This document shows, piece after piece, positions 55,646 to 60,264 of a DNA stretch of 64,000 bases. The stretch is from NCBI GenBank assembly GCA_001897295.1, contig MKSN01000001.1, positions 516,011 to 580,010 on the forward strand. Reading direction: 5' to 3'. The position numbers and the translations under genes are program-made. The stretch is from Candidatus Saccharibacteria bacterium 49-20. GTDB lineage: Bacteria; Patescibacteriota; Saccharimonadia; Saccharimonadales; Saccharimonadaceae. How positions within the stretch are numbered: position 1 is the stretch's first letter; each line of letters begins with the position of its first letter. The notes below the pieces were generated by a model. That model did not search any database, had not been told where the DNA came from, and was given only the letters and a program-made list of their open reading frames with translations.

Positions 55646-58597
55646 CTACGCCTTTTGAAGAGAGACCGTGAGCACTGCGCCCTCGATCTTTGCCTCTACG
55701 CTAAACGAATAGCCGCCAGTAGACACAGCTTCAGCGAGCGTCTCGGTCGCAATAGTCTCGGCGTACTCTTGAATCGCCTGCTGCAACTCGCCGTCTTCAG
55801 CCTGAAGGCTAAGAGAGATGCGATCATCAACATTAAGCCCCGCATTCTTACGCGCCGCCTGAACGTGACGAATGACTTCACGAGCCATACCTTCGCGGCG
55901 AAGCTCTGGGGTGACATTCTTATCAAGTTGCGTGAACTCAAAGTCGCCATGCGCAACTTCTTTTACGTTCACCTCTTCAGCAATAATCGATTCATAGAAT
56001 GCATCGAGTCGCTCACCGCCATAAGTAAGCTTCGAAAGTGGCTGACGCACCTTAATCTGCGGTTCATGTTCGTCCTTGAACATACGCAGTGCAAGACCCT
56101 GCTCAATCACTTCGCGGGTTTGTGCCATACGCTCAAGTACGAAGTCGTTTGCGTGGCCCACTTCTGGCCAATCGGTCAAGTGAACGCTTTCGCCTCCAGT
56201 AAGCTTCTGGTACAGTTCTTCCGCCATAAATGGCACAAACGGCGCCAAGCCCTGACTAAGCCTTACAAGTACATAGTGCAGCGTCTTGTAGGCATTGTTC
56301 TTGTCAGTGTCATCTTCAGATTTCCAGAAACGACGGCGAGAACGACGCACATACCAGTTCGATGCATCATCGAGGAATGGCAGAATTGGACTTGTTGCGT
56401 TTGGAATATCGTAGGCGTCCATGTTGGTTTCAATTTCTTGAAGCAATTGATGCACACGGCTGATAATCCATTGGTCGAGTGGGTTTGTCACTTCATCGGA
56501 CGGGTCAACCAGCTCGCCGTTAAATTCCCAACCATCGACTTCGGCGTACATAGTAAAGAAGTCGTACATATTCCAGACCATACTGAGCTTACGAGCGACA
56601 TCCCCTACATCTTTATCTTGCAGTGCAAAGTCTTCACCCTTCAGGAGTGGGCTTGAAAGCAGCAAGAAGCGAAGCGAGTCGGCACTAAACTTATCCATGA
56701 GCTCGTTAGGGTCAGTAAAGTTACCGAGACTCTTACTCATCTTACGACCATCGTTTCCCGCTACGACGCCAGTAGTAATAACGTTGTTAAAGGCGTGGTC
56801 GCCAAAGAGTGCCGTGTTCACAGTGTGCACGTAATAGAACCATGCGCGAACCTGGCCGATATATTCGACGATGAAATCGGCTGGATAGTTTTGCTCAAAC
56901 TTTTCTTTATTTTCAAACGGATAGTGAAGCTGCGCGAATGGCATACTGCCACTCTCAAACCAACAGTCGAGCACCTTATCGATGCGCGTAAAGTGCTCAC
57001 CATCGATATCAAACGTGATGTCATCGACCCATGGACGGTGATAATCTTCGAGCTCGACACCGCTCAGATCTTTGAGCTCTTGGTACGAGCCGATAACCTT
57101 TACCGTTCCCCTGTCGCCCTTCCAAACCGGCATCGCTGTCGCCCAGAAACGATCACGACTTAGGTTCCAGTCTGGCGCTTGTTCGATATTCTTTTGGAAG
57201 CGACCATTCTTTAAGTGTGCTGGGAACCAGTTGATATTCTCGTTTTGTTCGAGCATCAGCGGTTTAGAATCTTGCACATCAAAGAACCAGCTTGGAATCG
57301 CCCGATACATAATGCGCTGCTTTGAACGAGGGTTGAAAGGGTATTCGTGCTGGATGTAGTCAATTTTCCATACAACACCCGCCTTTTCGAGCGCCTTCGC
57401 AATATTCTTGTTGTTGTCCCACACCTCAAGAGGCTTCGTACTATCGAGCCACGGCATAAGTGCGTAAAGCTTTTCAGCAACTTCGGGGTAATAGAACCCG
57501 TTGTCGTCAAGCACATGCACACGCGGAATGTCATTCGCCTGCGCGAGTACAAAGTCCTCTTCACCATAGATTGGTGCGAGGTGCACAATACCAGTACCGC
57601 TTTCAGCGCTGACGTAGTCCGCCGCCCATACCTTATGTGCGTTTTCGCCGTGGTTTACAAAGAGCGGTTCGTAGCTAAGGCCGACAAGCTCAGCACCCTT
57701 CAGTTCACGGAGAGTTTCGTAGGCAAGCGGCTGCTTCTTTTCGTCAATCAAGACTTTCGCAGCAAGTTCTTTCGCCAAGATAAATTGATCGTCGCCCACC
57801 TTCACTTCTACGTATTCAAGTTCAGAGTTCACTGCGAGCGCAGTATTGCCCGGAAGCGTCCATGGAGTGGTTGTCCAGGCAAGAAGCGTCGAACCATTAT
57901 CGAGTTTAAACTTCACGTAGACACTTGGGTCGGTGACGGTTTGGTAGGCGTCGTTGTCCATCGTGACTTCGTTCTTACTCACAGGCGTCGCGAAGCGGGT
58001 GTCGTACATAAGCACCTTCTCGCCTTCATAGATCTTGCCCTTTTCATAAAGCGTCTTAAACGCCCACCAGACACTTTCCATAAAGTCTTTATCCATGGTT
58101 TTGTAGGCACCCTTAAAGTCGACCCAACGACCCACGCGGTCAATCACATCCTCCCAAGTTGCGGCGTTCGCCACCATGCTTTCACGGGCTTTGGTGATGT
58201 AGTGCTCAAGCGTGACGGTTGGAAGTTCGTTGCCATCTTTATCAAGCGGTGCCGGTGCGTCAGCAGTGGTCACGATTTGACGACGGTCGACAATACCGAG
58301 TTGTTTTTCGACAAAGTTCTCAGCTGGCAGGCCGTGAGTATCCCAACCCCAGACACGCTCGACGCGCTTGCCTTTCATTGTCCAGTAGCGAGGCACCGCG
58401 TCCTTCACAATGCTACTCAGCAGCGTTCCGTGGTGCGGCACGCCGGTAATAAATGGAGGCCCGTCATAAAATACATAAGCGTTCTCTTTCGAGCGCAGCT
58501 CAATCGATTTCTCGAACGTTTTATTTTCTTTCCAGTAGTTTACGAGTTCTTTTTCGTATTCGAGTGCGCGTCGCCGACTCCCTGATTGAAACTTCAT
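55646..58597 (-). CDS. ileS: isoleucyl-tRNA synthetase
   Basis: YDGPPFITGVPHHGTLLSSIVKDAVPRYWTMKGKRVERVWGWDTHGLPAE; DGRKMSKSLGNF. Confidence 0.98.
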   Translation of the reverse strand: MKFQSGSRRRALEYEKELVNYWKENKTFEKSIELRSKENAYVFYDGPPFITGVPHHGTLLSSIVKDAVPRYWTMKGKRVERVWGWDTHGLPAENFVEKQLGIVDRRQIVTTADAPAPLDKDGNELPTVTLEHYITKARESMVANAATWEDVIDRVGRWVDFKGAYKTMDKDFMESVWWAFKTLYEKGKIYEGEKVLMYDTRFATPVSKNEVTMDNDAYQTVTDPSVYVKFKLDNGSTLLAWTTTPWTLPGNTALAVNSELEYVEVKVGDDQFILAKELAAKVLIDEKKQPLAYETLRELKGAELVGLSYEPLFVNHGENAHKVWAADYVSAESGTGIVHLAPIYGEEDFVLAQANDIPRVHVLDDNGFYYPEVAEKLYALMPWLDSTKPLEVWDNNKNIAKALEKAGVVWKIDYIQHEYPFNPRSKQRIMYRAIPSWFFDVQDSKPLMLEQNENINWFPAHLKNGRFQKNIEQAPDWNLSRDRFWATAMPVWKGDRGTVKVIGSYQELKDLSGVELEDYHRPWVDDITFDIDGEHFTRIDKVLDCWFESGSMPFAQLHYPFENKEKFEQNYPADFIVEYIGQVRAWFYYVHTVNTALFGDHAFNNVITTGVVAGNDGRKMSKSLGNFTDPNELMDKFSADSLRFLLLSSPLLKGEDFALQDKDVGDVARKLSMVWNMYDFFTMYAEVDGWEFNGELVDPSDEVTNPLDQWIISRVHQLLQEIETNMDAYDIPNATSPILPFLDDASNWYVRRSRRRFWKSEDDTDKNNAYKTLHYVLVRLSQGLAPFVPFMAEELYQKLTGGESVHLTDWPEVGHANDFVLERMAQTREVIEQGLALRMFKDEHEPQIKVRQPLSKLTYGGERLDAFYESIIAEEVNVKEVAHGDFEFTQLDKNVTPELRREGMAREVIRHVQAARKNAGLNVDDRISLSLQAEDGELQQAIQEYAETIATETLAEAVSTGGYSFSVEAKIEGAVLTVSLQKA

Positions 58598-59043
58598 GAC
58601 TTGCTCCTTTCCAATTCTTCTTTTAGATGTTCCATAAATTCACTTTTGAGTAGTTCTTGCCAGGGTGTAAACAGCGGCGAGGGCAACGAGTCGAAGTCTA
58701 CCCAACGTAACTCTTCACACTTTTCGGGCTCGAGGTTTTGCGGCTCCCCGCTCACCCAATCAGCAATGCTAAATATCGAGATAGAGTGCACGCCTTCATC
58801 GGGGAAATAGTTATTAGTAACCGCCCCGAAGCGCAGATTCCCAATTTCGCAGCCCACTTCCTCGAGGACTTCACGCGTCACTGCCTGTTCGAAAGTTTCA
58901 CCAACCTCTTGCCACCCACCAGGGACCGACCACGTACCCGCACCATGCTTACCGGCGCGTTTCATCATCAAGAATTTGCCATCACGCATAATAATCGCAG
59001 CCTGCCCTACCCACACGTGTCCTTGATCGTACATTGAGCCCAT
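58594..59043 (-). CDS. NUDIX hydrolase
   Basis: VPGGWQEVGETFEQAVTREVLEEVG Nudix box; overlaps ileS start by ATGA. Confidence 0.94.
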   Translation of the reverse strand: MGSMYDQGHVWVGQAAIIMRDGKFLMMKRAGKHGAGTWSVPGGWQEVGETFEQAVTREVLEEVGCEIGNLRFGAVTNNYFPDEGVHSISIFSIADWVSGEPQNLEPEKCEELRWVDFDSLPSPLFTPWQELLKSEFMEHLKEELERSKS

Positions 59044-59060: not shown

Positions 59061-59130
59061 AAAAAAATAAAAGACCTTCGTCCATCGGAGCCCGCGTTGC
59101 GGGTGGTACCATCCGATTTCCGAAAGTCTT
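59061..59130 (-). terminator. intrinsic terminator of the T-box leader
   Basis: AAGACTTTCGGAAATCGGATGGTACCACCCGCAACGCGGGCTCCGATGGACGAAGGTCTTTTATTTTTTT: nested stems then T-rich tract. Confidence 0.85.
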
Positions 59131-59236
59131 GCTTTCAGCACTTCGTTAGTTCACTGTGTCGCCGGAATCGCGTTGGGGTCTAGTTTCTTTCGATTTCTTC
59201 CCAAAACTCGTGGGTGATAGCCACTCAAACGTTTAT
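59061..59236 (-). promoter_or_regulatory. T-box-type leader (transcriptional attenuator) upstream of NUDIX-ileS
   Basis: Minus strand: GAGTGGCTATCACCCACGAG (apparent specifier ATC 59216-59218), TGGTACC T-box core (59105-59111), terminator with U-tract, aaRS operon downstream. Confidence 0.85.
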
Positions 59237-59242
59237 GCCCTT

Positions 59243-59271
59243 ATTTTACCTCAAACTACAGTGGCGTACAA
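59243..59271 (-). promoter_or_regulatory. sigma70-type promoter for the T-box/NUDIX-ileS operon
   Basis: TTGTAC - 17 nt - TAAAAT. Confidence 0.75.
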
Positions 59272-59280
59272 GCTATTGAA

Positions 59281-60264
59281 CTACTCCGCACCCTGGTCGT
59301 ACAAACTCTTAATCTCCGCACCAGTCAGTGCACGACCATAGAAACGTGCATCATCCAGCGAACCAACAAAACCCTCAGTCCCGCCCGTGTTATAAGCTCC
59401 AACAACAACATCGTTTGTGCCATACCCAGTAATGACAGGTCCGGCTACGTCACAGATTTGAGAGCCGTTCACATATAACTTCATGCGCCCTGTACTCGAA
59501 CTAATTGTGTAAACGACGTGATACCAGGTATTTACCGCGACGCTTACCGGACAGTTATAGGTGTCGGTCCAACCCGTAGTGCTCGATGCGAGCATACCAA
59601 CCGCAGTACCTCCAGCATTAAAGCGATACTTCTGCTTTCCCTCTTTGGCAATCAATGTCCCCACCGAAGCAAGGTTAGTTGAACGCGCCCACACACTTAG
59701 GGTGAGATCTGGTTTATTGAATAGTGTCGAGTTTCCCATCGTAATAGACGCTGCAGCACCCGAAAAGAGGTACGCACCATTTGCGCTGCCGTCCTGCCCA
59801 GTTGTGAGTGTTGCACCACTCACGGTGCCGTTTAGCCCATTTCCACTCGTGTCGTTTGCTCCACCGTCAAAGTTCCAATGTCCAACCATGCCATCAGCTC
59901 CACAACGCCCAACTGCTGGACTCGTCGTGCTTGAACTCGCGTACCAACGCAACGAGCCATTTGAGCTCTCAAGGCAATAGCTGTTATCAAGACTGTTGTA
60001 TTGGTAGTAGTAAGTATTACCAGAGCTTGCAACTATATTAGCCGCGCTTAGTGACGCAGGATACATCTCGGTACCACTCTGCAATTTAACTACCTCAAGT
60101 CGCTTCACGCCATTTTCAATATCAGCTTTTACCGCCGTATCTTTAGTGCGATTCGTAATGCCATTATATGCAACAATTGTAATAGCTGCCAAAATAGCTA
60201 TCACCACGACGACAATGAGAAGCTCAACGATAGTAAACCCTGTTTGTTTTTGCCCACGAATCAT
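59281..60264 (-). CDS. type IV pilin-like protein fused to LamG/concanavalin-like domain
   Basis: QTGFTIVELLIVVVVIAILAAITIVAYNGI prepilin N-terminus; MVGHWNFDGGANDTSGNGLNGTVSGATLT...WYHVVYTISSSTGRMKLYVNGSQI...GSLDDARFYGRALTGAEI. Confidence 0.9.
   Translation of the reverse strand: MIRGQKQTGFTIVELLIVVVVIAILAAITIVAYNGITNRTKDTAVKADIENGVKRLEVVKLQSGTEMYPASLSAANIVASSGNTYYYQYNSLDNSYCLESSNGSLRWYASSSTTSPAVGRCGADGMVGHWNFDGGANDTSGNGLNGTVSGATLTTGQDGSANGAYLFSGAAASITMGNSTLFNKPDLTLSVWARSTNLASVGTLIAKEGKQKYRFNAGGTAVGMLASSTTGWTDTYNCPVSVAVNTWYHVVYTISSSTGRMKLYVNGSQICDVAGPVITGYGTNDVVVGAYNTGGTEGFVGSLDDARFYGRALTGAEIKSLYDQGAE

Follow-up and report, generated by a model that had tools for sequence, protein, structure and literature searches.

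The window analysed here, a 64,000-nucleotide stretch of the genome of Candidatus Saccharibacteria bacterium 49-20, carries on its minus strand at 59234-59061 a complete T-box leader, located 5' of a NUDIX hydrolase gene that is followed by ileS. Read 5' to 3' from 59271 to 59041, the sequence runs through a putative promoter, a short hairpin, Stem II, Stem IIA/B, Stem III, an antiterminator, a U-tract and the NUDIX start (Table 1). The NUDIX-ileS operon, proposed earlier in a sequence-only reading that gave no strand, is supported: the families of its two genes are confirmed by matches to PF00293 and TIGR00392, and their open reading frames share 4 nt. The putative promoter matches 8 of 12 consensus bases and is weak by this measure, and a simple promoter scan of the leader made no call at TTGTAC-17-TAAAAT. 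The gene that ends just upstream of this promoter (59281-60264, minus strand) encodes a concanavalin-like domain and, at the N-terminus, a methylation motif like that of type IV pilins.

Table 1. Features of the T-box leader and of the genes that follow it.
Feature	Position	Strand	Details and basis
Putative promoter TTGTAC-17-TAAAAT	59243..59271	-	TTGTAC 59271-59266, TAAAAT 59248-59243; direct reading
Ultrashort Stem I	59204..59234	-	Outer AAAC/GUUU, inner GUGG/CCAC, 7-nt apical loop CUAUCAC
Inner Stem I hairpin GUGG-CUAUCAC-CCAC	59224-59210	-	Direct reading
Specifier AUC (Ile), apical loop	59216..59218	-	ATC invariant in aligned ileS leaders
Stem II with S-turn-like GAAGAA/UAGA motifs	59173..59204	-	Alignment of relatives
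Stem IIA/B pseudoknot	59150..59172	-	Relatives: IIA 98%, IIB 85% of cells paired
RRRxG purine motif AAGUG, 5' of Stem III	59139..59143	-	Sequence and alignments
Stem III	59120..59138	-	CUGAAAG 59138-59132, loop CAAGA, CUUUCGG 59126-59120; covaries in 47 nested leaders
Terminator 5' arm AAGACUUUCG	59121..59130	-	Common to Stem III loop and 3' arm
AAA partner motif, 3' of Stem III	59119-59117	-	Sequence and alignments
Antiterminator	59084..59117	-	A1 AUCGGA/UCCGAU, A2 CCCGC/GCGGG
T-box bulge UGGUACC	59111-59105	-	UGGU complementary to ACCA of tRNA-Ile
Terminator 3' arm CGAAGGUCUU	59071..59080	-	90.6% pairing and covariation with 5' arm, 47 leaders
Terminator U-tract UUAUUUUUUU	59061..59070	-	Sequence
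NUDIX hydrolase, first operon gene	58594..59043	-	PF00293, E 4.5e-21
ileS, isoleucine--tRNA ligase	55646..58597	-	TIGR00392, 765.7 bits, over cut-off

The Rfam T-box model (RF00230) matches the leader at 36.4 bits (E 1.4e-6 in 501 nt, 6e-7 genome-wide), which is its single match in the whole 905-kb genome. The gathering score of this model is 93 bits; at that threshold, and likewise in Rfam strict mode, the leader is not reported, so that standard annotation would miss it. The covariance-model check proposed in the sequence-only reading hence returned a match, albeit one under the cut-off, and the absence of a hit, named there as a refutation, would have misfired at the default threshold of Rfam. 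Relatives were therefore gathered. The minimum free energy of the 189-nt leader is unremarkable relative to shuffles (z -0.7), and since folding is uninformative in this respect, comparative evidence was needed. Using the IleS protein as scan query yielded 80 loci, all Saccharibacteria-like, and 36 leaders were aligned by sequence only, with the structure taken from established T-box anatomy. In this alignment 92.9% of the pairs are standard, compared with 73.5% after shuffling and at most 41.9% in slid registers, a control that somewhat favours the structure because this was picked with the alignment in view. Double-sided changes number 268 versus 79 in shuffles, which retain column make-up but not relatedness, and all nine helices covary. 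The inner four base pairs of Stem I are paired in all 36 relatives with compensatory changes, and its outer helix is 77% paired; the lower helix of Stem II is 98% paired with double-sided changes at all 5 pairs, and its AAGA and UA-A columns are invariant or nearly so, the likeness to an S-turn being one of sequence. The antiterminator helices (A1 97%, A2 91% paired) also show compensatory changes. The size of these effects in the aligned sequences leaves little doubt that the leader is a genuine T-box.

This assignment agrees with the anatomy of the element, which combines the general T-box features (a specifier matching the regulated ileS, a UGGN bulge, Stem III with RRRxG/AA purine flanks and an A1/A2 antiterminator) with those of class III, i.e. 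a short Stem I, an apical specifier, no IDTM, and Stem II together with Stem IIA/B. We considered whether the element might be degenerate, with a terminator that has become constitutive and a lost response to tRNA, as the low Rfam score, the non-canonical closing pair of A2 and the 20 of 80 sampled Saccharibacteria ileS genes with no T-box detected 5' of them could suggest. However, a dead element would not keep its specifier, bulge, purine motifs and pseudoknot with compensatory change, and these are kept among leaders whose ileS proteins go down to about 60% identity; we thus regard loss of function as very unlikely.

The genome provides a fitting candidate ligand. Among the 30 of 39 tRNA places that could be typed there is one tRNA-Ile(GAU), with anticodon loop CUGAUAA, discriminator A73 and 3' end ACCA; its anticodon is complementary to the specifier AUC and its ACCA end to UGGU. 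ATC is present in the apical loop of each aligned leader. On paper, UAUCA could pair with five bases of the anticodon loop, yet we claim only the three codon bases. The T-box with an AUC specifier for Ile, as originally read from the letters, is in this way backed by sequence, Rfam E-value (6e-7), covariation and the match to tRNA-Ile(GAU) with A73.

With the class III ileS T-boxes of Nocardia farcinica and Mycobacterium tuberculosis the leader shares a short Stem I without elbow-binding module (PMC10482949, PMC7583486), the apical Ile specifier, Stem II, Stem IIA/B, Stem III, the UGGN bulge and the ileS target. It differs in its host group, Saccharibacteria instead of Actinobacteria, and in its apical loop, which by simple pairing has 7 nt as opposed to 5-6 nt. 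Furthermore, the Nocardia and Mycobacterium leaders are translational and contain an SD sequestrator, whereas the Saccharibacteria leader has a terminator and an SD outside the hairpin. Class III, defined by the ultrashort Stem I (PMC10482949), has mostly translational members among those studied (PMC10482949, PMC7583486), and according to reviews transcriptional T-boxes generally require a long Stem I (PMC7583486). The class III anatomy of Stem I would thus also fit a translational T-box of the actinobacterial ileS kind, whose terminator-like hairpin acts via the ribosome-binding site. In the window, however, the SD-like CAGGAAG (59057-59051) lies 3' of hairpin and U-tract, is part of neither arm and is as unsequestered as the start codon, and the relatives consistently have a U-tract directly after the 3' arm; we give translational control hardly any credence. 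The combination of a compact, actinobacterial-like Stem I with a transcription terminator, pointed out in the sequence-only reading, is borne out by both anatomy and relatives. Altogether, the sequence evidence argues that this is very probably a class III-like T-box through which uncharged tRNA-Ile controls the attenuation of NUDIX-ileS transcription.

The terminator itself has an unusual arrangement. In the canonical transcriptional T-box of Firmicutes (RF00230), with which the leader shares bulge, antiterminator, Stem III and control of an aminoacyl-tRNA synthetase (aaRS) by transcription termination, Stem I is long and the 5' strand of the terminator is the 3' strand of A1/A2 (PMC7583486); neither applies to the window. 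Here, the antiterminator lies inside a 10-bp helix, AAGACUUUCG/CGAAGGUCUU, which ends at the U-tract and takes its 5' arm from the loop and 3' arm of Stem III, not from the A1/A2 3' strand. The 'mutually overlapping terminator' that had been noticed does overlap with Stem III and encloses the antiterminator, but the canonical overlap with the antiterminator is missing. A simple terminator scan of the leader made no call; it missed the nested helix because only loops of 3-8 nt were permitted.

We classified 119 distinct Saccharimonadia leaders, 78 as nested, 32 as canonical, 2 as adjacent and 7 as unclassified. In nested leaders the enclosing helix scores 24.9 versus 12.8 with the upstream region shuffled, and 62 of the 78 exceed all 20 shuffles, while the canonical leaders score 13.5 versus 12.9, which is background and indicates no enclosing complementarity. 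When 47 nested leaders are aligned, double-sided changes in the terminator helix number 134, compared with 41 after shuffling and 23-35 in slid registers, and the covariation of this helix is 0.69 versus at most 0.26 in slid registers. The same strand pairs to 96.9% as Stem III in these 47 leaders, with 21 double-sided changes versus 3.5 after shuffling. Stem III overlaps the terminator arm by at least 3 nt in 61 of 78 nested leaders and in 0 of 32 canonical ones. Of 444 shared positions, 421 have a base that pairs with each of its two alternative partners (331 +/- 4 when dealt anew), a count that is inflated because the helices were chosen for maximal pairing in each sequence and because it covers just the 61 leaders in which the overlap is 3 nt or more; the fixed-register counts of double-sided changes are the safer test. 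Since the two helices are mutually exclusive and both covary, the switching strand is Stem III and not the 3' strand of the antiterminator. The parts of the leader, its specifier and both exclusive helices are thus visible in the compared sequences, and as the deviation is confined to the output module, we claim a T-box with a variant platform.

These data also bear on the simplest alternative, namely that the T-box is ordinary, its terminator being in competition with the 3' strand of the antiterminator, and that the outer helix is a coincidence. Such a platform is the textbook one (PMC7583486), it occurs in the sister ileS clade, with 32 canonical leaders, and in the window GGAC-GAAG-GUCU can form a hairpin 5' of the U-tract. 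This hairpin comprises just 4 bp, however, and leaves the A1/A2 strand unused; the best downstream alternative scores 8.1 versus 22.7 for the nested helix, and the nested helix covaries and is absent where a canonical terminator exists. An ordinary platform therefore has, in our estimation, only a slim chance of being correct.

We propose instead that the decision is taken at Stem III. The AUC of Stem I would read the anticodon of tRNA-Ile, with Stem II and the IIA/B pseudoknot supporting the pairing. Stem III and the antiterminator are transcribed ahead of the terminator 3' arm, so that the ON fold is available first and would form as RNA polymerase proceeds. Uncharged tRNA-Ile, once bound, would pair its ACCA with UGGU, the purine flanks of Stem III would dock on the complex, and with Stem III held in this way transcription would go on. 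With tRNA-Ile charged or absent, CGAAGGUCUU would on emerging displace the 5' arm of Stem III and pair with AAGACUUUCG, and the resulting terminator would have the antiterminator inside it and the U-tract at its end. This OFF fold is by calculation the more stable one without tRNA: predicted energies are -27.7 kcal/mol for the OFF fold and -21.7 kcal/mol for the ON fold with Stem III forced, in which the window has a weak 4-bp hairpin 5' of the U-tract. We infer tRNA binding, the direction of the response and the order of strand displacement; the holding of Stem III by tRNA and the sign of the response are modelled on studied T-boxes. Because the OFF state leaves the antiterminator helices free to form, the choice between the folds by the tRNA state goes beyond what the sequence alone can tell. 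We consider it fairly probable that Stem III is locked onto the discriminator by uncharged tRNA-Ile and invaded by the terminator strand when this tRNA is absent, so that the antiterminator need never be disrupted, that aminoacylation sensing may have left the A2 wobble, and that the Saccharibacteria leaders thus have an expression platform of their own, in a T-box reservoir of the Candidate Phyla Radiation (CPR) that is for the most part undescribed.

The sister Saccharibacteria ileS clade has the same sensor domain, specifier, target and model match, and differs in its platform. It keeps the canonical form, e.g. a terminator UUCCAAU-GAAA-GUUGGAA on the A1 3' strand, with a Stem III independent of the terminator. 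In a tree of 81 IleS proteins (FastTree; midpoint root only for drawing), a set of 39 includes 33 nested leaders, among them the window, and a set of 42 includes 20 canonical leaders and 20 proteins without detected T-box; the tree requires a minimum of 4 changes between nested and canonical. One 'canonical' call within the nested set, L078, could be nested after all, its helix having a bulge and so escaping the ungapped search. The closing pair of A2, where a G.U wobble is the main steric sensor of aminoacylation in studied T-boxes (PMC7583486), is G.U in 29 of 32 canonical versus 32 of 78 nested leaders and A.C in the window. This contrast is essentially one of clade against clade and hence not independent evidence, yet it would agree with sensing having moved toward Stem III, the stem whose RRRxG motif has been defined before (PMC7583486). 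Nested and canonical platforms in sister clades of one gene family offer a natural comparison, which bears on the role of Stem III and on the way in which one output module gives way to another among T-boxes.

Terminators that enclose the antiterminator also occur outside the candidate phyla. In a Bacillota control of 21 Rfam-level leaders from two records, several of them read by eye because automatic classing had misplaced their U-tracts, all readable leaders are canonical except L404 (Acetoanaerobium noterae), whose terminator encloses the antiterminator with no evident Stem III. The enclosing form that shares Stem III was seen, among the leaders compared, in Saccharimonadia only. The 2.63-Mb A. 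noterae record NZ_CP154629.1, which has 17 T-boxes, is labelled a plasmid but resembles a chromosome deposited under that label.

With a model built from the 36 relatives, the element turns up in 265 of 393 Saccharimonadia genomes, or in 230 of 342 when only good genomes are counted. In a phylum-wide Patescibacteria sample, which includes some Saccharimonadia, 139 of 380 genomes have it. Its weakest phylum matches score near those of Firmicutes T-boxes (up to 35 bits), and are therefore T-boxes of some kind, not necessarily close relatives. The Rfam cut-off is passed in just 4 of 145 Patescibacteria genomes. In a control with viral contigs, matches were mostly chance hits to a 14-mer, and Rfam confirmed 3 of the 8 tested. 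The first gene after the T-box is ileS in 87 of 118 Saccharimonadia loci; in the other 31 (e.g. L022, L048, L078 and the window) it encodes a NUDIX protein in 3 and has no family assigned in 28, with ileS further downstream in several. Downstream proteins at Patescibacteria loci outside the window were aaRS in 14 of 15 tested cases, the remaining one being an NAD(P)H-hydrate dehydratase. A recent horizontal origin from an actinobacterial host, also considered in the sequence-only reading, finds no support in this distribution: many other Patescibacteria families also have leaders that this model matches, and such leaders precede other aaRS genes too, which makes an old presence in the phylum more economical on a comparison that covers leaders of Patescibacteria and Bacillota.

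Most bacteria of the candidate phyla are symbionts that have yet to be cultured, and few of their regulators are known. The leader provides a testable candidate sensor of amino-acid starvation in most of the sampled Saccharimonadia genomes, and its coupling of an ultrashort Stem I to transcription termination parts the short Stem I from translational control, with which reviews link it. A search of full-text literature for T-box or riboswitch together with Saccharibacteria, Patescibacteria or Candidate Phyla Radiation, a scope that leaves out most subscription papers including a main comparative T-box survey, returned no joint report, and T-boxes of these groups are likely absent from print.

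We also looked at T-boxes of other CPR lineages. A nested platform was called in 36 of 77 leaders, but the shuffle test supports 6 of these 36, and the idea that it is common was dropped outside Saccharimonadia. Seven leaders (L159, L161, L164, L179, L182, L197 and L209) have little or no Stem III and a terminator that encloses the antiterminator, its arm starting straight after the AAG purine motif. Another 18 of the 77 are adjacent; in L185, L187, L192, L213, L221 and L229, for instance, the terminator lies wholly 3' of the antiterminator and hardly overlaps it. One Patescibacteria genome of 1.1 Mb (G416) has nine Rfam T-box matches. The sampled leaders outside Saccharimonadia precede ileS, valS, thrS, lysS and nondiscriminating aspS, the last four seen among L156-L235, and specifiers read by eye mostly match the aaRS (AUC with ileS, GUC with valS, ACC with thrS, GAC or AAC with aspS), with UGGC bulges in those GAC leaders that were checked. 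AAC (Asn) specifiers precede nondiscriminating aspS in L191 and L220, which by sequence suggests sensing of tRNA-Asn upstream of an enzyme that would charge tRNA-Asn with Asp.
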